From assembly GCF_012184425.1 (NCBI RefSeq), contig NZ_VTOW01000003.1:1-64000 (forward strand): a stretch of 64,000 nt of DNA, written 5' to 3'. Positions 6,272 to 37,049 of this stretch are shown in pieces. Both the position numbers and the translations under genes were made by a program. Each line of letters starts with the position of its first letter. Positions within the stretch are counted from its first letter, which is position 1. The notes under the pieces were generated by a model that was not told the origin of the DNA, did no database searches, and worked only from the letters and a program-made list of their open reading frames with translations. This stretch comes from Candidatus Manganitrophus noduliformans. Its GTDB lineage: Bacteria > Nitrospirota > Nitrospiria > SBBL01 > Manganitrophaceae.

Positions 6272-9106
6272 CTATCCCGTATTCCGCATCCCCGTCGCGA
6301 TACAATTGATCGTCAGCAGGATGGCATGAATCAGCTCTTCGCGCTCTTTTTTTTCGAGTTTTTGCGTGCGGAGCTTCTCGATCAGGTTGACCTGAATGTA
6401 GTTGATCGGATCGAGGAAGGGGGTCCGGAGGCGGATCGAGCGTTGGAGGGAGGGATCGTTGTCGAGGATCTCGTTTTGCCCCGTGATCTGCCTGATCATT
6501 TCCACCGTCAGATCGTACTCTTTTCGGATCCGCCCGAAAATCGCCTTTCGCAGGCGCGGATCGGAGACGAGCTCGGCGTAGTGCTGGGCGATGTGCATGT
6601 CGGCTTTCGCCAGGGTCATCTGCATGTTGTCGATCAGGTTGTTGAAAAAAGGCCAGGTCCGGTACATTTCCGCCAGGAGCGGGCCGTTGGCCGCGGGGTC
6701 GCGATCGACGAACGCTTTGAATGCCGTTCCGAGCGGATACCAGGTGCCGATCATCTGCCGGCTCTGCGTCCAGGAGAAGATCCAGGGGATGGCGCGCAGA
6801 TCCTTCAGCGATTTGGCCTGGGAGCGGTAGGCCGGCCGCGAGCCCATCTTCAAGAAGCCAATTTCGGAGATCGGGGTCGATTCCTGAAAATACCGGTAGA
6901 GATCGGGGTGGCCGACCAAATCGCGATAGCGCCGATAGGCGGCCTGAGAAAGTTCTTCCAACGCCCCCTGGAAGCGGGCCATCCGCTCTGCATCGATATG
7001 AGAGGGGGCCGGGCCGAAGGTCGCTTTGAGAACGCCGGTGATCAATAATTCAAGCTGGTGCGACGCGGTTCCCTGGTTGGCGTACTTCGACGAAATGACC
7101 TCTCCCTGCTCCGTGATCTTGATCCGGCCTTCGACGGTGTGCGGCGGCTGCGCCAGGATGGCCCGATGGGTGGGGCCGCCCCCGCGGCCGACCGTTCCGC
7201 CGCGGCCGTGAAAAAGGGTCAGCGCGATCCCCTCTTTCCGGGCGATCTCCCAAAGATGGATCTGGCTTTTGTAGAGGCCCCAACTGGCGGTGAGCATCCC
7301 CGAATCTTTGCTGCTGTCGGAGTAGCCGAGCATGATCTCCTGCCGTCGGCCGCGGGCGCGGAGCTGCAGCCGATAGACCGGATTTTTCAGCAGGCCGGTC
7401 AGGATCGCCGGCGCGGCCCGCAGGTCCTCGACAGTCTCGAAGAGGGGGGCGATGTCGATCTTGCTCCGGAAGCCGCCGTCGGGGGTGGGGCCGCAGAGAC
7501 CGGTCTCTTTCGCCAGGAGGAGGACGGCGAGGATATCGCTCATGCCAGAGGCCATGCTGATGATGTAGCTGCCGACGGCGTCGGGACCGAGCGCTCCCAT
7601 GATTTTCTTCATCGTCGCGAAGGTGTCGATCACCTCCTGGTTTTCGGGAGAGAGGGTCCAGTGCGGGGAGAGCAGAGGGCGCATCGTCATCAGCTCGCGG
7701 GTGAGGATCTCGACCTTTTTTTCCTCGTCTCCGGAGAGGAAGCCGGGATAGAGCTTGACCCGGTTGAAGATCTCGGCGATTGTCTCGCGGTGGCGGGAGG
7801 CATCCTGGCGGATGTCGAGACGGGCGAGGTGAAAGCCGAAGACGCGGATGCGGGAGAGCATCGTGTCGATCTCCATCTCCGCGGGCCGGGCCCCTCGGTG
7901 GCGGGTCAGGCTCTCGCGCATCACCTCCAGATCGGCCGCGAACGCGTCGGCGTCTCGATAACTGCGCGCCGGCGGCGCACCGTCGTGGATCTCCTCGCGG
8001 AGGCGCCGGTCGAGCTCGCGCTGCGTCTCTTCCAGCTTCAGCTTCATAAAGCCGATCTTCTGGCGGTAGGGCTCGTGCAGATTCCTTGAGCGGATCCGTT
8101 TTGCCGCCTCGGGAAAGAGGACCGCATCCGCTTCGACCGACTGAAGCAGCGTGTCGGAAACGCCGACCAGGTGGCGTGAAGGGCTGAGACTGACGACCAG
8201 TTGGTCGAGCGATTCGCGGTAGAGCCGGAAAATTAGGTCCTTGTGGGTAAGGACCGTCCACTCGGTGTCTTCCGCTTTGACGAAGGGATTTCCGTCCCGG
8301 TCGCCGCCGACCCAAGAGCCGAACCGCAGGAAGGGGGGGAGGTGGGAATCGACCGGGATCCCCTTTTTCCGGAAGTGGTCCCGCAGCTCCCCGTAGAGCC
8401 TTGGGATCACGTCATAAAAGGTCTCTTTGAAGTAGAAAAGGATGTTCTGGACTTCCTCCCGGACGGTCGGCCGCTCCAGATGGATGTCTCCCGTCTGCCA
8501 GAGAAGCGTGACCATATTGTAGATTTCCCGCTCGATCGCCCGCCGCTCCCGCGGAGTCCAGATCGGATTCTCCAGCCGGAAGATCAAAAGATAGATCGCC
8601 CGGTATTTCTCCAGGATCGTCTGCCGCTTCGCTTCCGTCGGGTGCGCGGTCATGACCGGCATGATTTCGATTTCACCCAGCCGGGCCAGCTGTTTGGCGA
8701 GCGTCGGGCGGGTCCGCTCGGAAAAGTAATGCGGGAGCGCCCCTTCGACAAAGCCCCCCCGCCGCTCCTCGTCGCGCCGCGCCTGCATGGCATCGTTCTC
8801 TTCGGCCACGTTGAGAAGGTTGAACGACAGATCGAAGGCGGAGACCACCTGCGTGCAGGTCGGAAGATCGAGCCGGTCGATCATCCGCAGGAGCTTTTTT
8901 TCGAGCTTCGGATCGTAGCGGTCGCGCAGCTTCCGGCAGATTCCCCGGAGTAGATCGACCCGGCCGACCAGCGACTCCCCCCCCTGCTCCAGCAGGACAT
9001 CCCGGAAAATATCCTCCAGATAATCGACGCCCGCCTGAACGGGGCGGAGCGGGGCCTTCATCGCGGGGGTTGATTTGGGTCCTTTGTGTTGGGGCAATTT
9101 GGCCAT
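6272..9106 (-). CDS. ppc: Phosphoenolpyruvate carboxylase
   Basis: A 944-residue enzyme that adds bicarbonate to phosphoenolpyruvate to make oxaloacetate, feeding the citric acid cycle. All signature motifs are present: TAHPTE (catalytic His), GSWVGGDRDGNP, GYSDSSKDSG and FHGRGGTVGRGGGPTHRA. The C-terminus MRNTG matches the family's usual (Q/R)NTG end that takes part in feedback inhibition. The frame stays open about 1,600 bases further upstream, but that part lies antisense to the helicase gene and is not PEPC-like; family length and the MAKLPQ start fix the beginning at 9106. This ATG has no ribosome site but has promoter elements immediately upstream, so the mRNA is probably leaderless. 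Confidence 0.95.
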   Translation of the reverse strand: MAKLPQHKGPKSTPAMKAPLRPVQAGVDYLEDIFRDVLLEQGGESLVGRVDLLRGICRKLRDRYDPKLEKKLLRMIDRLDLPTCTQVVSAFDLSFNLLNVAEENDAMQARRDEERRGGFVEGALPHYFSERTRPTLAKQLARLGEIEIMPVMTAHPTEAKRQTILEKYRAIYLLIFRLENPIWTPRERRAIEREIYNMVTLLWQTGDIHLERPTVREEVQNILFYFKETFYDVIPRLYGELRDHFRKKGIPVDSHLPPFLRFGSWVGGDRDGNPFVKAEDTEWTVLTHKDLIFRLYRESLDQLVVSLSPSRHLVGVSDTLLQSVEADAVLFPEAAKRIRSRNLHEPYRQKIGFMKLKLEETQRELDRRLREEIHDGAPPARSYRDADAFAADLEVMRESLTRHRGARPAEMEIDTMLSRIRVFGFHLARLDIRQDASRHRETIAEIFNRVKLYPGFLSGDEEKKVEILTRELMTMRPLLSPHWTLSPENQEVIDTFATMKKIMGALGPDAVGSYIISMASGMSDILAVLLLAKETGLCGPTPDGGFRSKIDIAPLFETVEDLRAAPAILTGLLKNPVYRLQLRARGRRQEIMLGYSDSSKDSGMLTASWGLYKSQIHLWEIARKEGIALTLFHGRGGTVGRGGGPTHRAILAQPPHTVEGRIKITEQGEVISSKYANQGTASHQLELLITGVLKATFGPAPSHIDAERMARFQGALEELSQAAYRRYRDLVGHPDLYRYFQESTPISEIGFLKMGSRPAYRSQAKSLKDLRAIPWIFSWTQSRQMIGTWYPLGTAFKAFVDRDPAANGPLLAEMYRTWPFFNNLIDNMQMTLAKADMHIAQHYAELVSDPRLRKAIFGRIRKEYDLTVEMIRQITGQNEILDNDPSLQRSIRLRTPFLDPINYIQVNLIEKLRTQKLEKKEREELIHAILLTINCIATGMRNTG

Positions 9107-15489: not shown

Positions 15490-15586
15490 AAAACCAATGA
15501 GGAATGGTTCCATTAGGAATGAGGAATCAAAGTCAAAAAAACGGAGTTTCCAATTCCTCATTCCCAGATTCTTAATTCCGAATTGG
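15490..15586. repeat. Dispersed imperfect-palindrome repeat, copy 1
   Basis: An AT-rich element made of GAGGAAT/TTAGGAAT units, the core AATCAAAGTCAAAA, and the inverted part AATTCCTCATTCCCAGATTC. A closely similar copy lies at 38405-38495. Both copies sit between the stop codons of two convergent genes; this one overlaps the 3' end of the PFK fusion. Confidence 0.65.
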
Positions 15587-17893
15587 ATTGATGTTTCCGT
15601 GCATTCTCGAAAAGAGTTCCCAGTCGAACGGCTTGGGGGTGATGCTGTGGAGCGGGATCGCTTCGACCGCTCCTTCCACCCGGCAGGCGAGGAGGCATCC
15701 GACCGCGCTCTCCGGCCGCTCCACCAGACGATGGAGCGTTTCATAGGCGAAGTGCTGCGCCAAGGTCCGGTCGATCGGCGTCGGCGGGGCGCCCCGCAGG
15801 GTGTGGCCGAGGATGGTCGCCTTCGTCGCGACCGTTAAGCGATAGTCCCCCTGCGCCGATCGCGCGGAGGGCCACTTCGCGATCGTCTGGGCGATGTAAT
15901 CGACGAGCCCGTGGACTCCGCCGAGCGGGTGATGCCGGTGCGGTGTTTTTTCCGCGACGATGAAGAGATGGCTCTTGTTCGGCACCCCCATCGACCGCTT
16001 CAGATTTCCCAAGATCACCTGATCGATGTAGGCGTCCGGGTCGGGATGTTCGTTGACCAAGATCCCCTCGGCGCGGGCCTGATAAGCGCAGGCGAGCGCG
16101 AGATGGCCCGCCCCGGCCCCCATCACCTCGACGAAAAAGACGCTTCCCATCGCGGCGCTCGTCGCCTTGAGCGATTCGAGCGAATGGTTCGCCAGCGCGA
16201 CCGCCGAGTGAAAGCCGAGCGAGGTCGTGCCGGCGAGGTTGTCGTCGATCGTCCCCGGCAGGCCGACGACCTGTACGCCGAACTTCTCAAAAAGAACGCG
16301 GGCTCCCCGGAGACTCCCGTCTCCCCCCATGACGACGAGGGCGCCGTTTTCGAGGTAGGGGGCCAGGTTCCGCATGACGACCCGTTGCACCTCTTCATCC
16401 TTGAAATCTTCGAAGCGGCTGCTCCCGATCGGGCTGCTGGCGACGCCGGCCATGCCGCGCATCTCCCGCTCGGTGAACTGCTCGATCCAGTTGTTCGCCA
16501 ACCCTAAGAATCCGTGTCGGACGAAGTGAACGGCGATCCCGAGACGGTCGCCGCAGGCGCGCAGCTCCTTGAGCGCCGCCCCGGCGCCGGCGAAATCCCC
16601 CCCGGAAACCAGGGCGACGACCTGCCGGAGTTGATTCGGCCGGAGGGTGACCCGGCCGGCCCGCTCCCGCTCGACGCTGATCCAGGCCTCGCGCGCCGTC
16701 CGCTCCCGTTCGGAGAGGCCGACCGCGGTGGAGTAGCCGGAGAGCTGGCCGTTTTCATACGCGAGAAGAACGACGTTGTCCTGCCCCTCCTTGTATTCGC
16801 CGAACTCGGAGAAGGCCTCGTGAAACGGCCTCGGATCGAGATAGGTGATCAGCGCCCGGAGCGTCGAGCTGTGGGTGTAGAGCGAGGCGACCCCTCCCTG
16901 GTGGGATCGGGCGATCCGATGGATGCCGTCGACGACATCGACATAAAGATCAAAAAACGAATTTCCGCCGGGGTAACAATAGAGGGGGTTTTTTATCAGC
17001 CGCTTGGCGCTTTTCGCATCGACCCCGAAGGCGCGCCCCGCCTCTTCCGCCTCGGCGGCCTTTTCCAGACCGGTGACCCAGCCGAAGTCTTGCGACGCCA
17101 GCGCCGGGTCGACCGTTGCGGGTTGGACCTCCTGATCGTTCGAGATCAACGCTCCGGCGACCCGCTCAAAGAGTTGGCGGGTATTCGGGCTGCTGCTGAT
17201 TAAATGTTTGAAACTCTTCGGGTCGAGGTAATTTTCCAGGTGAAGGAAGTCGAGCTGTTGGCCGACCACCCCCACCATCCGGGCGAGGGCGGCGCCGACG
17301 GCGTCGGCTTTCGGGATTCCTTTTCCTGATTCCAGCGTATTGGCGAGCCGGCAGCCGACGCGATGGGTTTTGCTTTCAACCCGGGAAACCCCATGCCGCA
17401 TCGTAAACAAAAGGCTTCGGCCGGCCAGGTTGCGCGGGAGAAGCCAGAAGCGGTCGTCGCCGAGATCGAGGACGATTCGCCCCTCCGCCAGCTGCGGCGT
17501 CAGCTGCGTCCGCGGGACGATCGCCACCGGCCGGCGGCCGAGCGGCTTCTGAACCGAACCGATCGGGCCCCGTAGCAGCGGCGCGAGCCCTCCTTCGGCC
17601 AGAACGGCATTCCAGGCTGCGAAGAAAACGATGAGATCGCCGCCGCATCCTTCATCGATCAGAGATTGCCGCGCCGTCCGGTACGCTTCGGCGTCGGGAC
17701 ATCCCTGCTGCGCCCGATCGACGAAGGCCCTCACTTTCGGGATCGCCTCCCGGGCCGTGCGGACGCGATCGGCCGCGGCGGCAAGAGGAGGAAAGGTCGC
17801 CCCCTCGGGCGGGGTCCGTCTTGCCATCGCCTCACCGTAAGCGACCAGACCTTCCACCATAACGAAACGGAGTTCTTCCCTTTGAAAATCCAT
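15572..17893 (-). CDS. Fusion of histidine phosphatase and ATP-type phosphofructokinase
   Basis: A protein of about 773 residues (numbering below counts from an upstream Met at 17905; ATG 17893 has GAGG seven bases upstream and is preferred). Residues 165-400 contain the marks of a histidine phosphatase: MRHG at 169-172 and a second His in SLYTHSSTLRAL at 345. Residues 427-777 are a 6-phosphofructokinase domain: SGGDFAG (434-440), MGGDGS (526-531), LPGTIDDN (549-556, with the catalytic Asp) and VEVMGAGAGHLAL. The canonical GGDxPGxN and TIDND are changed to GGDFAGAG and TIDDN, so substrate or phosphate donor may differ. The N-terminal 130 residues are helical and unassigned. The layout recalls eukaryotic PFK-2/FBPase-2 but uses the unrelated PFK-1 fold. 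Activity of either half is inferred. Confidence 0.8.
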   Translation of the reverse strand: MDFQREELRFVMVEGLVAYGEAMARRTPPEGATFPPLAAAADRVRTAREAIPKVRAFVDRAQQGCPDAEAYRTARQSLIDEGCGGDLIVFFAAWNAVLAEGGLAPLLRGPIGSVQKPLGRRPVAIVPRTQLTPQLAEGRIVLDLGDDRFWLLPRNLAGRSLLFTMRHGVSRVESKTHRVGCRLANTLESGKGIPKADAVGAALARMVGVVGQQLDFLHLENYLDPKSFKHLISSSPNTRQLFERVAGALISNDQEVQPATVDPALASQDFGWVTGLEKAAEAEEAGRAFGVDAKSAKRLIKNPLYCYPGGNSFFDLYVDVVDGIHRIARSHQGGVASLYTHSSTLRALITYLDPRPFHEAFSEFGEYKEGQDNVVLLAYENGQLSGYSTAVGLSERERTAREAWISVERERAGRVTLRPNQLRQVVALVSGGDFAGAGAALKELRACGDRLGIAVHFVRHGFLGLANNWIEQFTEREMRGMAGVASSPIGSSRFEDFKDEEVQRVVMRNLAPYLENGALVVMGGDGSLRGARVLFEKFGVQVVGLPGTIDDNLAGTTSLGFHSAVALANHSLESLKATSAAMGSVFFVEVMGAGAGHLALACAYQARAEGILVNEHPDPDAYIDQVILGNLKRSMGVPNKSHLFIVAEKTPHRHHPLGGVHGLVDYIAQTIAKWPSARSAQGDYRLTVATKATILGHTLRGAPPTPIDRTLAQHFAYETLHRLVERPESAVGCLLACRVEGAVEAIPLHSITPKPFDWELFSRMHGNINPIRN

Positions 17894-18172: not shown

Positions 18173-21100
18173 GTGGCGACCGCTTCATTGGGGAAAACGG
18201 CAAAAAACATGCCGGCATCGAAGCAGAAAGGAAAAACAGGCCGCAAGAGTTCTTCGAAGAGCGGCGGGAGTCATGGAGGCAACGGCGGATCGATGATGGC
18301 GACTCTCCTGGAAGCGCTCAGAGCGGTCAAAGCGGGAGATTTTTCGGTGAGGATGCCGGTGGTGAAGGGGGGCGTCATGGAGGAGATTGCAAGCGCCTTC
18401 AACGAGGTCGTTCAGCTGAACGAGGGGATGGCGAAAGAATTCGTCCGCGTCGGAACGATCGTCGGCCAGGAAGGGAAAATGACCGAACGGGCGTCGCTCG
18501 GCGCCGTCTCCGGCGCCTGGGCGACGAGTATCGATTCGATCAACGCGCTCATCGGCGATCTGGTCCGTCCAACCACGGAGGTCGGCCGGGTGATCACCGC
18601 CGTCGCCCACGGCGATCTTTCTCAAAAAATGGTCCTGGAGATCGACGGAAGACCGGTGAAGGGAGAGTTCCTCCGAATCGGCACGACGGTGAATATCATG
18701 GTCGACCAACTCAGCTCTTTCGCCGCGGAGGTGACCCGTGTGGCGAAGGAGGTCGGCACCGAAGGAAAACTCGGCGGCCAGGCCGATGTGAAGGGGGTTT
18801 CGGGGACCTGGAAAGATCTCACCGACAACGTGAACCAGCTTGCGGGAAATTTGACTTCTCAGGTGCGGAACATCGCGAAGGTGACCACGGCCGTCGCGAA
18901 GGGGGACCTCTCCCAGAAGATCACCGTCGATGCGAAGGGGGAAATCCTGGAGCTCAAAAATACGATCAACACCATGGTCGATCAGCTCAACTCCTTTGCC
19001 GCGGAGGTGACCCGTGTGGCGAAAGAGGTCGGCACCGAGGGAAAACTCGGCGGCCAGGCGGAGGTGAGGGGGGTCGGCGGGACCTGGAAGGATCTGACCG
19101 ACAACGTGAACCAGCTTGCGGGAAATCTGACTTCTCAGGTGCGGAACATCGCGAAGGTGACCACGGCCGTCGCAAAGGGGGACCTCTCCCAGAAGATCAC
19201 CGTCGATGCGAAAGGGGAGATCTTGGAGCTGAAGGATACCATTAACGTCATGGTCGATCAGCTTCGATCGTTCGCGGCGGAGGTGACCCGTGTGGCGAAG
19301 GAGGTCGGCACCGAGGGGAAACTCGGCGGCCAGGCCGATGTGAAGGGGGTTTCGGGAACCTGGAAGGATCTGACCGACAACGTGAACCAGCTTGCGGGAA
19401 ATTTGACTTCTCAGGTGCGGAACATCGCGAAGGTGACCACGGCCGTCGCGAAGGGGGACCTCTCCCAGAAGATCGAAGTCGACGCCCGCGGCGAGATCTT
19501 GGAATTGAAGAACACGATCAATATCATGGTCGACCAGCTTCGATCGTTCGCGGCGGAGGTGACCCGCGTGGCGAAGGAGGTCGGCACCGAGGGGAAACTC
19601 GGCGGCCAGGCGGAGGTGAAGGGGGTCTCCGGGACCTGGAAGGATCTGACCGACAATGTGAACCAGCTTGCGGGCAATTTGACCTCCCAGGTGCGGAACA
19701 TCGCGAAGGTGACGACCGCGGTGGCGAAGGGGGACCTCTCCCAGAAGATCGAAGTCGACGCCCGCGGCGAGATCTTGGAGCTGAAGAACACGATCAACGT
19801 CATGGTCGACCAGCTTCGGTCGTTCGCGGCGGAGGTGACCCGTGTGGCGAAAGAGGTCGGCACCGAGGGAAAACTCGGCGGCCAGGCGGAGGTGAAGGGG
19901 GTCTCCGGGACCTGGAAGGATCTGACCGACAACGTGAACCAGCTTGCGGGAAATTTGACTTCTCAGGTGCGGAACATCGCGAAGGTGACCACGGCCGTCG
20001 CGAAGGGGGACCTCTCCCAGAAGATCACCGTCGATGCGAAGGGGGAGATCCTCGAATTAAAAAATACGATCAACGTCATGGTCGACCAGCTTCGGTCGTT
20101 CGCGGCGGAGGTGACCCGTGTGGCGAAAGAGGTCGGCACCGAGGGGAAACTCGGCGGCCAGGCGGAGGTGAAAGATGTGGCGGGGACCTGGAAGGATCTG
20201 ACCGACAACGTGAACCAGCTCGCGGGGAATTTGACTTCTCAGGTGCGGAACATCGCGAAGGTGACCACGGCCGTCGCGAAGGGGGACCTCTCCCAGAAGA
20301 TCACCGTTGATGCGAAGGGGGAGATCCTCGAATTAAAAAATACGATCAACGTCATGGTCGATCAGCTCAGCTCCTTCGCGGCGGAGGTGACCCGTGTGGC
20401 GAAAGAGGTCGGCACCGAAGGGAAACTCGGCGGCCAGGCCGAAGTCCGCGGGGTTTCGGGGACCTGGAAGGATCTGACCGACAATGTGAACCAGCTTGCG
20501 GGGAATTTGACTTCTCAGGTGCGGAACATCGCGAAGGTGACCACGGCCGTCGCGAAGGGGGACCTCTCCCAGAAGATCACCGTCGATGCGAAAGGGGAGA
20601 TCTTGGAGCTGAAGAACACGATCAACGTCATGGTCGATCAGCTCAACTCGTTCGCGGCGGAGGTGACCCGTGTGGCGAAGGAAGTGGGCACCGAAGGGAA
20701 ACTCGGCGGCCAGGCCGATGTGAAGGGGGTCGCCGGAACCTGGAAGGATCTGACCGATAATGTGAACCAGCTCGCGGGAAACCTGACTTCCCAGGTGCGG
20801 AATATCGCGAAGGTGACCACGGCCGTCGCGAAAGGAGACCTCTCTCAGAAGATCACCGTCGATGCGAAGGGCGAAATTTTGGAGCTGAAGAACACGATCA
20901 ACGTCATGGTGGACCAGCTCAACTCCTTCTCCGCGGAGGTGACCCGCGTGGCGAAAGAGGTCGGCACCGAAGGGAAACTCGGCGGCCAGGCGGAGGTGCA
21001 GGGGGTCTCCGGAACCTGGAAAGACCTGACCGACAATGTGAACTTCATGGCGAGCAACCTGACCACGCAGGTGCGCGGGATCGTCAAGGTCGTGACCGCG

Positions 21101-23368
21101 GTCGCAAATGGGGATCTCACCCGGAAATTGGTTGTGGAAGCGAAAGGGGAGATCGCCGCGTTGGCCGATACGATCAACAGCATGACCGATACCTTGAGAA
21201 TCTTCGCCGATCAGGTGACCGACGTCGCCCGGGAGGTGGGAATCGAGGGGAAGCTCGGCGGCCAGGCGAAGGTGCCGGGGGCCGCGGGGACCTGGAAGGA
21301 CTTGACCGACAATGTGAACCAGCTTGCCGGAAACCTCACCACGCAGGTGCGGGCGATCGCGGAGGTCGCCACCGCTGTGACGAAGGGGGATTTGACCCGG
21401 TCGATTACGGTCGAGGCGCAAGGGGAGGTCTCGGCCCTCAAAAACAACATCAACCAGATGATCGCGAACCTGAAGGATACGACGCAGAAAAACATGGAGC
21501 AGGACTGGCTGAAAACCAACCTCGCCAAGTTCTCCGGAATGATGCAGGGTCAAAAAGACCTGAAGGCGATCTCCCGGTTGATCATGTCGGAGTTGACCCC
21601 GCTGATCTCCGCGCACCACGGGGCTTTCTACATTTCGGAAAATCAGGACAACGAGCCGGTCTTTAAGCTGATCAGCAGCTACGCCTTCAAGGAGCGGAAA
21701 AATCTCACTCAGCGGTTCCACCTCGGAGAGAGTTTGATCGGGCAGTGCGCGCTGGAGAAAAAGGGCATCCTCTTGACGAAGGTCCCCCCCGACTACATCA
21801 CGATCAACTCCGGTCTGGGGGAGGCCCCTCCGCTGAACATCATCGTCCTGCCGGTCCTCTTCGAGGGGGAGGTCAAAGCGGTCATCGAGCTGGCCTCCTT
21901 CCAGCCGTTCAGCCAGATCCACCAGATCTTCCTCGATCAATTGATGGCGAGCATCGGCGTGGTGCTGAACATGATCTCGGCGAGCATGCGGACGGAAGAG
22001 CTGCTCCAGGAGCTGCAGAAGTCGAACGCGGAGCTGGAGGCCCAGGCGAAAGAGCTGGAAGAAAAAGCGTCGCTGCTCGAAATCAAGAACAAAGAGGTCG
22101 AGCTGGCGAGCGTCTCTCTGGAGGAAAAAGCGGAACAGCTCTCCCTGATTTCGAAATACAAGTCGGAATTCCTCGCCAATATGTCTCATGAGCTCCGCAC
22201 CCCGCTCAACAGCCTGCTGGTGCTGGCCAAGCTCCTTTCGGAGAACAAAGACACGACCCTCACCCCCAAGCAGGTGGAGTATGCGCAGACCATCTACACG
22301 TCGGGATGCGATCTCTTGACCCTGATCAATGAGATCTTGGATCTCTCCAAGGTCGAATCGGGGAAGATGGGGGTGACCCCGAGCGATATCCGCCTTCCGG
22401 AGGTCCAGGACTATGTCGAGCGGACCTTCCGGGAGATGGCCCAGCAGAAAGGGCTTGGTTTCAACATTATCCGGGATGAGGCGTTGCCGAGCGCGATCCG
22501 GACCGATGAGCAGCGCCTCCAGCAGATCTTGAAGAACCTCTTGTCGAACGCTTTCAAATTCACCGAAAAAGGAAATGTCCTGCTCCGGATCACTCCCGCC
22601 GATCCGGAGACGGCCTTTGAGAGCGAGCTTCTCAAGCGATCGAATTCCGTCATTGCATTCTCGGTGACCGACACCGGCGTCGGGATTCCCAAGAACAAAC
22701 AGAAGCTGATCTTCGAAGCCTTCCAGCAGGCCGATGGGACCACCAGCCGGAAATACGGCGGCACCGGTCTGGGTCTGACGATCAGCCGGGAGATCGCGCG
22801 GCTGTTGGGAGGGGAAATTCACGTGGAGAGCACCCCCGGCCGGGGAAGCACCTTTACCCTCTACCTGCCGGAGTCGTATGCCGGTTCCGAGGTGGAACAC
22901 GACTACGGCCAGGACGGGCAGAACGAAATCGCCAAATCGGACGAGATCCCCCCGGGAAGCCTGAACGGAAAGAGGATTCTCGTGATCGACGACGATGTCC
23001 GCAATATCTTCGCGGTGACCAGCCTTCTTGAAAGCCAGGGGGTGACGGTCCTCTTTGCGGAGAACGGCAAGGAAGGGATTGAACTGTTGAAAAACAACAA
23101 AGACGTCGATCTCGTTTTGATGGACATCATGATGCCGGAGATGGACGGGTACGAAACGACCCGCATGATCCGAAACATGGGGAAATACAAATCGCTTCCG
23201 ATTATCGCCCTGACCGCCAAGGCAATGAAGGAGGATCGGGAGAAATGCATCGAAGCGGGTGTCTCCGACTATATCACCAAGCCGGTCGATAATAACCGTC
23301 TTCTCTCCCTGCTCCGTGTCTGGATGGATCGGAAAGAAGAGGGAAAGAAACAATCAAAATCGGCTTAG
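18173..23368 (+). CDS. Cytosolic hybrid histidine kinase with poly-HAMP array, GAF and receiver domains
   Basis: A 1731-residue sensor kinase. After a basic N-terminus, residues 40-1100 form a chain of HAMP-like coiled modules: one divergent unit, eight almost identical 92-residue units and two diverged units, each unit holding two HAMP-like helix pairs. Then come a GAF domain (about 1117-1265), a coiled coil, HisKA ([11 protein letters not shown], His about 1339), an ATPase domain ([26 protein letters not shown]) and a receiver (IDDD near 1600, phospho-Asp about 1651 in [13 protein letters not shown]). No transmembrane segment is visible. The design resembles fungal group III kinases (Nik1/Os-1) that sense osmotic stress through HAMP repeats. 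GTG 18173 has GGAGGG at ideal spacing. It is first of a three-kinase operon. Confidence 0.93.
18719..21478 (+). repeat. Ten in-frame 276-bp HAMP repeats, eight nearly identical
   Basis: The codons for [12 protein letters not shown] recur exactly every 276 bp (18719, 18995 and on to 20927, then 21203 for the diverged last unit). The first eight units are nearly identical at the DNA level, differing at few sites such as TCG/AGC and D(V)/E(V) codons. The last two units have drifted. This looks like recent tandem expansion or ongoing gene conversion; copy number could change by recombination. Confidence 0.9.
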
Positions 23369-35636: not shown

Positions 35637-37049
35637 GTGACAACGCCAAGACGCGCCAAAATTGTTTGCACCCTCGGGCCCGCGACCCGTTCCGAAGAAA
35701 TGATTTCCCGCCTGATCGGCGCCGGGGCCGATGTGATCCGGCTGAACTTTTCTCACGGTCTTCATGAAGAGCATGGAGCGGCGATCCGGCACATTCGACG
35801 GATTGCGGAGAAGAAGGGGAAGCCGGTCGCCATCCTTCAAGACCTTCAGGGGCCGAAGGTTCGCGTCGGCGCCTTAAAAGAGAAGTCGATTCAACTCAAA
35901 CGGGGGAAACTTCTGACGATCTTGCCGAGGCCGATCCCGGGAACGGAAGAAGCGATTTCCACGACCCATCCCGAGTTACACAAAAAGGTCCGGCCGGGCG
36001 ATGCCATTATGATGAACGACGGAGCGATCGACCTTCGCGTCCTCCGGATCGAAGATGAAAAGATCGTCTGCCGTGTTATCGGCGGGGGAACGCTTCAGGC
36101 TTACAAGGGAATCAATGTGCCGGGCCGGGATTTGGGCTTCCCCTCTCTCACCGCCAAGGACCGCGCCGATCTCAAATTCGGTCTTGCGCATGGGGTCGAC
36201 TTTGTCGCCCTCTCCATGGTCCGGCGGGTCGAGGATCTCCTGACGATCAAGCGGTTGATCCTGCGGGAGAAGAAAGATGTTCCGGTGATCGCCAAGCTGG
36301 AGCAGGCGATGGCGATCGATCATCTGGATGAAATTATGAAGGTGGCCGACGGCGTGATGGTGGCGCGCGGGGACTTGGGGGTGGAGATTCCGCTGGAGCA
36401 GGTGCCGCTGCTTCAAAAGGAGATCATCAAGAAGGCGAACGATGCGCAGATTCCGGTGATCACGGCGACGCAGATGTTGGAGTCGATGGTCGAGCGGCCC
36501 CGCCCGACCCGCGCCGAGGCCTCCGACGTCGCCAATGCGATCATCGACGGGACCGATGCGGTGATGCTCTCGGCGGAGACCGCGGCGGGGAACTATCCGG
36601 TGGAGTCGGTCAAGACGATGGCCAGGATCATCGTCGCCGCCGAAAGACGGGCGCCGGTGATGGACCGCCGTCTTCAGCAAGGACTCTCCGTGGCGCGGGC
36701 GGTCAGCTCCGCGGCCTGCCAACTCGCCTGGCAGATGAGCGCGAAGGCGATCGTCACCTCGACCCTCACCGGAGGGGCGGCCCTTCGACTTTCCAAATAC
36801 CGGCCGACGAATCCGATCCTTGCTTTTACCCCCCATCCCGAGATCGAGCGCCGGATGAGCCTCTACTGGGGGGTCACGCCGCGTCGAATGCCGTTGCTGA
36901 AAAATACCGATGACATCTTCAAGGAGTTCGTCCACGCCGTCACCCAGAGCAAAGAGGTGAAGCGGGGAGATCTGCTGGTGATGGTCGCGAAGTCACCGTG
37001 GGTCGGCTCGACCATTAACGATTTAATCAAGGTCCATCAAATCGAATAA
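35637..37049 (+). CDS. pyk: Pyruvate kinase
   Basis: A 470-residue enzyme converting phosphoenolpyruvate and ADP to pyruvate and ATP. The N-terminus has KIVCTLGPAT and RLNFSHG, the metal and substrate site has MVARGDLGVEIP, and ATQMLESM and DVANAIIDGTDAVMLS mark the end of the barrel; the C-terminal regulatory domain has the usual length. The start is GTG at 35637 with no clear ribosome site. It shares the strand with the aldehyde dehydrogenase. With ppc in the same window, the PEP node is doubly represented. Confidence 0.95.
   Translation: MTTPRRAKIVCTLGPATRSEEMISRLIGAGADVIRLNFSHGLHEEHGAAIRHIRRIAEKKGKPVAILQDLQGPKVRVGALKEKSIQLKRGKLLTILPRPIPGTEEAISTTHPELHKKVRPGDAIMMNDGAIDLRVLRIEDEKIVCRVIGGGTLQAYKGINVPGRDLGFPSLTAKDRADLKFGLAHGVDFVALSMVRRVEDLLTIKRLILREKKDVPVIAKLEQAMAIDHLDEIMKVADGVMVARGDLGVEIPLEQVPLLQKEIIKKANDAQIPVITATQMLESMVERPRPTRAEASDVANAIIDGTDAVMLSAETAAGNYPVESVKTMARIIVAAERRAPVMDRRLQQGLSVARAVSSAACQLAWQMSAKAIVTSTLTGGAALRLSKYRPTNPILAFTPHPEIERRMSLYWGVTPRRMPLLKNTDDIFKEFVHAVTQSKEVKRGDLLVMVAKSPWVGSTINDLIKVHQIE

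Follow-up and report, generated by a model that had tools for sequence, protein, structure and literature searches.

A fusion of a histidine-phosphatase fold with a phosphofructokinase domain in Nitrospiria: a possible sugar-phosphate kinase with a recruited ligand-sensing domain

Animal PFK-2/FBPase-2 (PFKFB) joins a sugar kinase and a histidine-phosphatase (HP) fold in one chain. The N-terminal glyoxalase-like domain of yeast phosphofructokinase (PFK) (PMC12203962) is the nearest precedent for an enzyme-fold domain at the N-terminus of a PFK; for an HP protein that acts on fructose 1,6-bisphosphate (FBP), the closest precedent is GPM2 of Mycobacterium tuberculosis (PMC4535450). We found no description of the fusion reported here, or of a PFK in Nitrospira, in the open-access literature. 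A 2025 review of the PFK superfamily does not contain the word phosphatase (PMC12203962), and PFK has been reported as missing from streamlined Great Lakes Nitrospira (PMC9239080).

The window (the whole stretch of DNA that was analysed, 64,000 nucleotides from Candidatus Manganitrophus noduliformans) carries on its minus strand an uninterrupted reading frame that starts with an ATG at 17893, preceded 6 bases upstream by GAGG, and stops at 15572-15574. The initial annotation had proposed that a single polypeptide combines a histidine phosphatase with a PFK-1-type kinase, and this was borne out by the 773-aa frame, by Pfam matches to both families and by the presence of the motifs RHG, YTHSS, GGDGS and PGTIDDN. 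Its features are as follows.

15572..17893, minus strand: HP-PFK fusion CDS, 773 aa (open reading frame, ATG start, orthologues)
17549..17893, minus strand: N-terminal helical cap, residues 1-115, high-confidence helices, least conserved part (AlphaFold, Pfam, conservation)
16709..17548, minus strand: HP-fold domain, residues 116-395 (Pfam, AlphaFold with pTM 0.87, Foldseek)
17390..17398, minus strand: RHG motif, residues 166-168, invariant, with putative phosphoacceptor His167 (alignment)
17177..17179, minus strand: Arg239, aligned with the second catalytic Arg of HP enzymes, variable among orthologues (alignment)
17093..17095, minus strand: Ser267, aligned with the general acid Glu of HP enzymes, Ser in 84/85 and Pro in one (alignment)
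16871..16873, minus strand: His341, at the position of the second catalytic His, invariant (alignment)
16631..16708, minus strand: interdomain linker helix, residues 396-421 (AlphaFold models, conservation)
15644..16630, minus strand: PFK-1-fold kinase domain, residues 422-750 (Pfam, Foldseek to E. coli PfkA with E 8e-17, tree)
16313..16327, minus strand: GGDGS, residues 523-527, ATP-type donor site corresponding to Asp103/Gly104 of E. coli PfkA (alignment)
16238..16258, minus strand: PGTIDDN, residues 546-552, with Gly124 and the base Asp127 kept and Asp129 replaced by Asn (alignment)
16142..16144, minus strand: Ser584, replacing Arg162, the F6P phosphate ligand of the R/T switch (alignment, PMC12203962)

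In Pfam, the C-terminal half matched PFK (PF00365) over residues 426-721 (188 bits, E 2.3e-55, over the cut-off) and the N-terminal half matched His_Phos_1 (PF00300) over residues 249-359 (E 4.9e-6), with scores of 26.8-28.7 bits against a curated cut-off of 21.7; the latter family was matched in 48 of 49 orthologue N-terminal halves. The AlphaFold model of the N-terminal half, computed on the alignment, consisted of the helical cap, for which Pfam gave no family match, followed by an HP fold (pTM 0.87, mean pLDDT 87). By Foldseek this half resembled TIGAR, PhoE and the Hydrogenobacter phosphoserine phosphatase PspA (target-normalised TM up to 0.76), in agreement with the phosphatase fold originally assigned to it, and the whole-protein model matched E. 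coli PfkA with the E value listed above. No significant similarity emerged when profiles of the HP half and of three E. coli HP proteins were compared.

The fusion was present in 33 of 58 relatives. Sampling of 396 genomes across the Nitrospirota recovered it in about 100, every one belonging to the class Nitrospiria, a count that omits two weak matches outside Nitrospiria and one genome with fragments only. Across the Nitrospiria fusions the HP part was 53-100% identical. An exact-peptide scan recovered 79 fusion loci on named public contigs; almost all of these carry a Nitrospira or Nitrospirota label. A sequencing or frame artefact was ruled out, as 32 of the 33 positive relatives have one intact frame and more than 70 named public contigs carry the fusion; one Manganitrophus MAG (L103) has a split copy, apparently through a single frame slip near residue 432, and a half-length match (L107) stops at a run of N. 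Most Nitrospiria share the fusion and some lack it; in one lineage of the class a copy broken by four stops (G320, contig C1:134707-135832) was observed, an apparent case of decay. Apart from two weak generic HP matches, no stand-alone N-terminal half was found in the 396 genomes of the phylum, and plasmid and phage records held no fusion, just ordinary PFKs matching the C-terminal half at about 30%. Confinement to Nitrospiria is well supported inside Nitrospirota and provisional beyond it, where coverage consisted of the exact-peptide scan and the plasmid and phage records. In a tree of PFK domains all 17 sampled fusions fell in one clade (support 100/100). The closest canonical PFKs are about 30% identical. 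The stem of this clade measured 4.4 substitutions per site and the branches within it were short, as expected after a change of function; because of the long stems, the exact sister group is unsure.

To compare the kinase half we used E. coli PfkA from the MG1655 record, and all active-site assignments in the fusion come from alignment, not from model geometry. For the roles of single PfkA and HP catalytic residues, except Asp127 and Arg162, we relied on general knowledge of these families. The fusions keep the PfkA residues Gly11, Arg72, Asp103, Gly104, Gly124, Asp127, Met169, Glu222, His249 and Arg252, the equivalents of Gly104, Gly124 and Asp127 being invariant in 85-87 orthologues. Gly104 and Gly124 together form the ATP-type donor signature of PFK; PPi-dependent PFKs have Asp104 and Lys124. 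A PPi donor was rejected on these grounds, and a changed phosphate donor is unlikely. In otherwise normal PfkA-like proteins of Nitrospiria and Meiothermus (canonical PFKs L125, L127, L130, L132, L135, L160 and others), we observed unusual donor-site residues, Asn/Gly/Thr at 103 and Ser at 124.

The sugar site gave a different result, and of the initial suggestion that substrate or donor had changed, the part concerning the substrate held. Arg162 and Arg243 of PfkA are the ligands of the 6-phosphate of fructose 6-phosphate (F6P) and Arg171 is a transition-state ligand; essentially all fusions carry R162S/T, R171A, R243K and D129N (one has D at 129). Arg162 and Asp129 are retained throughout 41 canonical, mixed and PPi-type PFKs, in which position 243 is R or K. 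The two motifs first singled out as altered fared differently: G431, G432, D433, F434, G436 and G438 of GGDFAG are invariant in 85 orthologues, making this motif a family feature, while TIDDN does hold a change, the family-wide one being N552 (Asp129 in E. coli PFK) and D551 being local, since most orthologues have N there. Since the 6-phosphate clamp and the transition-state Arg are replaced in every member, the acceptor would be held differently from F6P in canonical PFK and is perhaps not ordinary F6P. His652 and His655, invariant in the loop after the Glu222 equivalent, could help to hold a phosphate and may join in acceptor binding. At the effector site, R21, R25, R54, R154, K211 and K213 are replaced by K, V/A/S, E/D, K, V/I and N, respectively; as read from the alignment, the classical allosteric-site arginines are lost. 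Arg162 also turns away from the F6P phosphate in the T state (PMC12203962). The residues of the classical effector site and of the R/T switch are gone, and control would have moved to the fused HP-fold domain. The fusion missed the cut-off of the NCBIfam equivalog TIGR02482 (PfkA), scoring 166.5 bits against 371.

In the HP half, R166, H167, G168 and H341, the last within YTHSS (residues 339-343), are invariant in 85 orthologues. The second His and Glu expected of a phosphatase were thus recovered in part: the His is there, while the general acid, positioned by the L-x-E-x-x-x-G spacing of E. coli HP enzymes, aligns to residue 267, which is Ser in 84/85 and Pro in 1/85. The neighbouring residue 266 is Glu or Asp in 82/85 and Ala in the Manganitrophus protein; given this acidic residue and an alignment based on spacing, a shifted acid is possible. 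Residue 239, which sits at a helix start, as the model predicts for the second catalytic Arg, is R in 47/85 (including the window protein), E in 19, T in 10 and other residues in the rest. The 19 sequences with E239 have R243, while most have R239 and E243, and the two positions lie one helix turn apart; this charge swap suggests an intrahelical surface salt bridge rather than a catalytic role. Three of the five canonical HP catalytic residues are therefore fixed and two, as aligned, are not maintained, which argues against standard phosphatase chemistry. With RHG and the second His invariant, phosphatase or phosphoryl-acceptor activity is possible, and the half may bind phosphate, form a phosphohistidine intermediate or carry out an unusual catalysis.

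Of 44 fusion loci with long flanks, 38 encode a pyruvate kinase (PK) nearby, mostly adjacent, lying divergently upstream in 24, co-directionally downstream in 11 and otherwise in 3; the linked PKs are as little as 37% alike. In the window the PK gene (35649-37043) is about 18 kb from the fusion, and a spacing of 14-20 kb recurs in three other Manganitrophus genomes. Judging from this gene order, the fusion and PK may jointly control glycolytic flux. Strict co-occurrence of the fusion with PK or glycogen phosphorylase was not supported, and some fusion-bearing genomes (G007, G027) lack PK. The window also contains a PEP carboxylase gene (6275-9052), whose product, like PK, acts on PEP, and, on the plus strand at 18173-23368, a gene for a 1731-aa hybrid histidine kinase in which about ten nearly identical HAMP repeats precede GAF, HisKA, HATPase and receiver domains.

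A second PFK is present in 28 of the 33 fusion genomes, the remaining five (G007, G024, G047, G054, G057) having no other. That of the Manganitrophus genome (L001, contig C4:3075-3995) is of a mixed type, with Gly104, Lys124 and Ser for Arg at 72. Class I FBPase occurs in 57 of 58 genomes, and twice in the Manganitrophus genome, while GlpX was absent throughout the genomes examined and FBPase_3 was rare. The near-universal class I enzyme means that the HP domain is not needed as an FBPase, and the idea that it fills such a gap was rejected. FBP aldolase has been reported as absent in Manganitrophaceae (PMC9040806). The genome under study encodes a divergent class II aldolase-like protein (L171, contig C2:480279-481172; 489-aa frame, PF01116 at 68 bits), and genes of this type are found no more than about 4 kb from class I FBPase in five relatives (G021, G026, G028, G030, G032), for which reason it may be the missing aldolase.

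Taken together, these results are best explained, at a probability that we put at roughly 45%, by the fusion being a Nitrospiria-specific ATP-dependent sugar-phosphate kinase of the PFK family that recruited an HP-fold domain as a sensor of a phosphorylated ligand. The C-terminal domain would be a working ATP-dependent sugar-phosphate kinase, judging from the residues kept. The HP domain retains a phosphate pocket (R166, H167, H341) without maintaining the canonical acid and second Arg; its most likely role would be to bind a phosphometabolite, turn over little or none of it, and gate the kinase. Against a sensor, the invariance of R166, H167, G168 and H341 exceeds what simple ligand binding needs, and R239 is found in more than half of the sequences (47/85), among them the window protein; the acid may also be shifted to residue 266. 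Against the reading as a whole, a kinase without these F6P contacts could be dead, and not every fusion genome has a PK. The invariance of RHG and H341 speaks for a true bifunctional enzyme resembling PFK-2/FBPase-2, as the initial annotation had envisaged, in which one sugar (bis)phosphate would gain a phosphate at the PFK domain and lose it at the HP domain, the latter using a phosphoacceptor H167, H341 and an unconventional acid (E266 or D269). Further points in its favour are a YxYPGGxSF stretch that weakly resembles the F2,6BPase domain (E about 1, not significant) and the proven FBPase activity of the HP-superfamily GPM2 (PMC4535450). The claim is nevertheless weakened by Ser or Pro at the acid position, the variable second Arg, Ala266 in the Manganitrophus genome itself and a class I FBPase that leaves no missing activity to fill, and we consider it doubtful. 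Less probable still is its bolder form, an independent bacterial counterpart of PFK-2/FBPase-2 built from the PFK-1 fold, which would make and remove a sugar bisphosphate, possibly a signal and not fructose 1,6-bisphosphate, and so set how carbon is divided between autotrophy and the use of stores in nitrifiers and manganese oxidisers of the Nitrospira class.

The altered equivalents of R162, R171, R243 and D129 also fit the reverse arrangement, in which the HP domain would be the catalyst, e.g. a protein-phosphohistidine phosphatase, and the PFK domain would only sense a sugar phosphate. Most fusion genomes encode another PFK, and SixA-type enzymes, which lack the acid Glu and have the second Arg, work without an acid. 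That Arg is lost in many fusions, however, while neither the ATP site nor the catalytic Asp127 varies and no part is better conserved than the PFK domain (mean identity 78% vs 73% for HP), leaving this arrangement a slim prospect. We give an equally small chance to a normal glycolytic PFK whose N-terminal extension is structural and which lacks special regulation: the PK neighbourhood and the five genomes with the fusion as sole PFK agree with it, but it would leave the invariant RHG/His pocket unexplained and sits poorly with the fixed changes of the F6P ligands and the very long stem. Overall, a sugar kinase under special regulation seems likelier for the fusion protein than a simple kinase/phosphatase working in both directions.

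Nitrospira-class bacteria account for much of the world's nitrite oxidation and include Mn(II)-oxidising autotrophs; to our knowledge, the control of their hexose-phosphate metabolism has been little described. If the kinase-with-sensor reading is true, a kinase of single origin, found across the class, would have had its substrate site rebuilt and its control domain swapped in, PFK allostery having moved to a former enzyme fold; its annotation as a plain 6-phosphofructokinase may then be wrong.

Compared with bacterial ATP-dependent PFK-1 (PfkA, PF00365), the fusion has the same fold, ATP-type donor site, Asp127, Arg72, Glu222, His249 and Arg252, but it is about 30% identical, its F6P-phosphate and transition-state ligands and its allosteric site are replaced, and an HP domain is attached. 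That domain shares its fold, RHG and second His with branch 1 of the HP superfamily (PhoE, TIGAR, CobC, PF00300 and PspA of Hydrogenobacter), and differs in having Ser/Pro aligned with the acid Glu, a variable second Arg and an extra N-terminal helical cap. GPM2/SUP1 of M. tuberculosis, an HP-type FBPase, is likewise an HP superfamily protein linked to FBP metabolism, although it is a stand-alone phosphatase without a kinase domain. Yeast PFK is also a PFK-1 with an unrelated enzyme-fold domain at its N-terminus; there the recruited fold is another one and the PFK is of the eukaryotic duplicated kind. In PFKFB the kinase is a P-loop enzyme placed N-terminally, whereas that of the fusion is of the unrelated PFK-1 fold and C-terminal, and the fusion, unlike PFKFB, does not maintain the HP acid and second Arg; its likeness to PFK-2/FBPase-2 is one of layout only.
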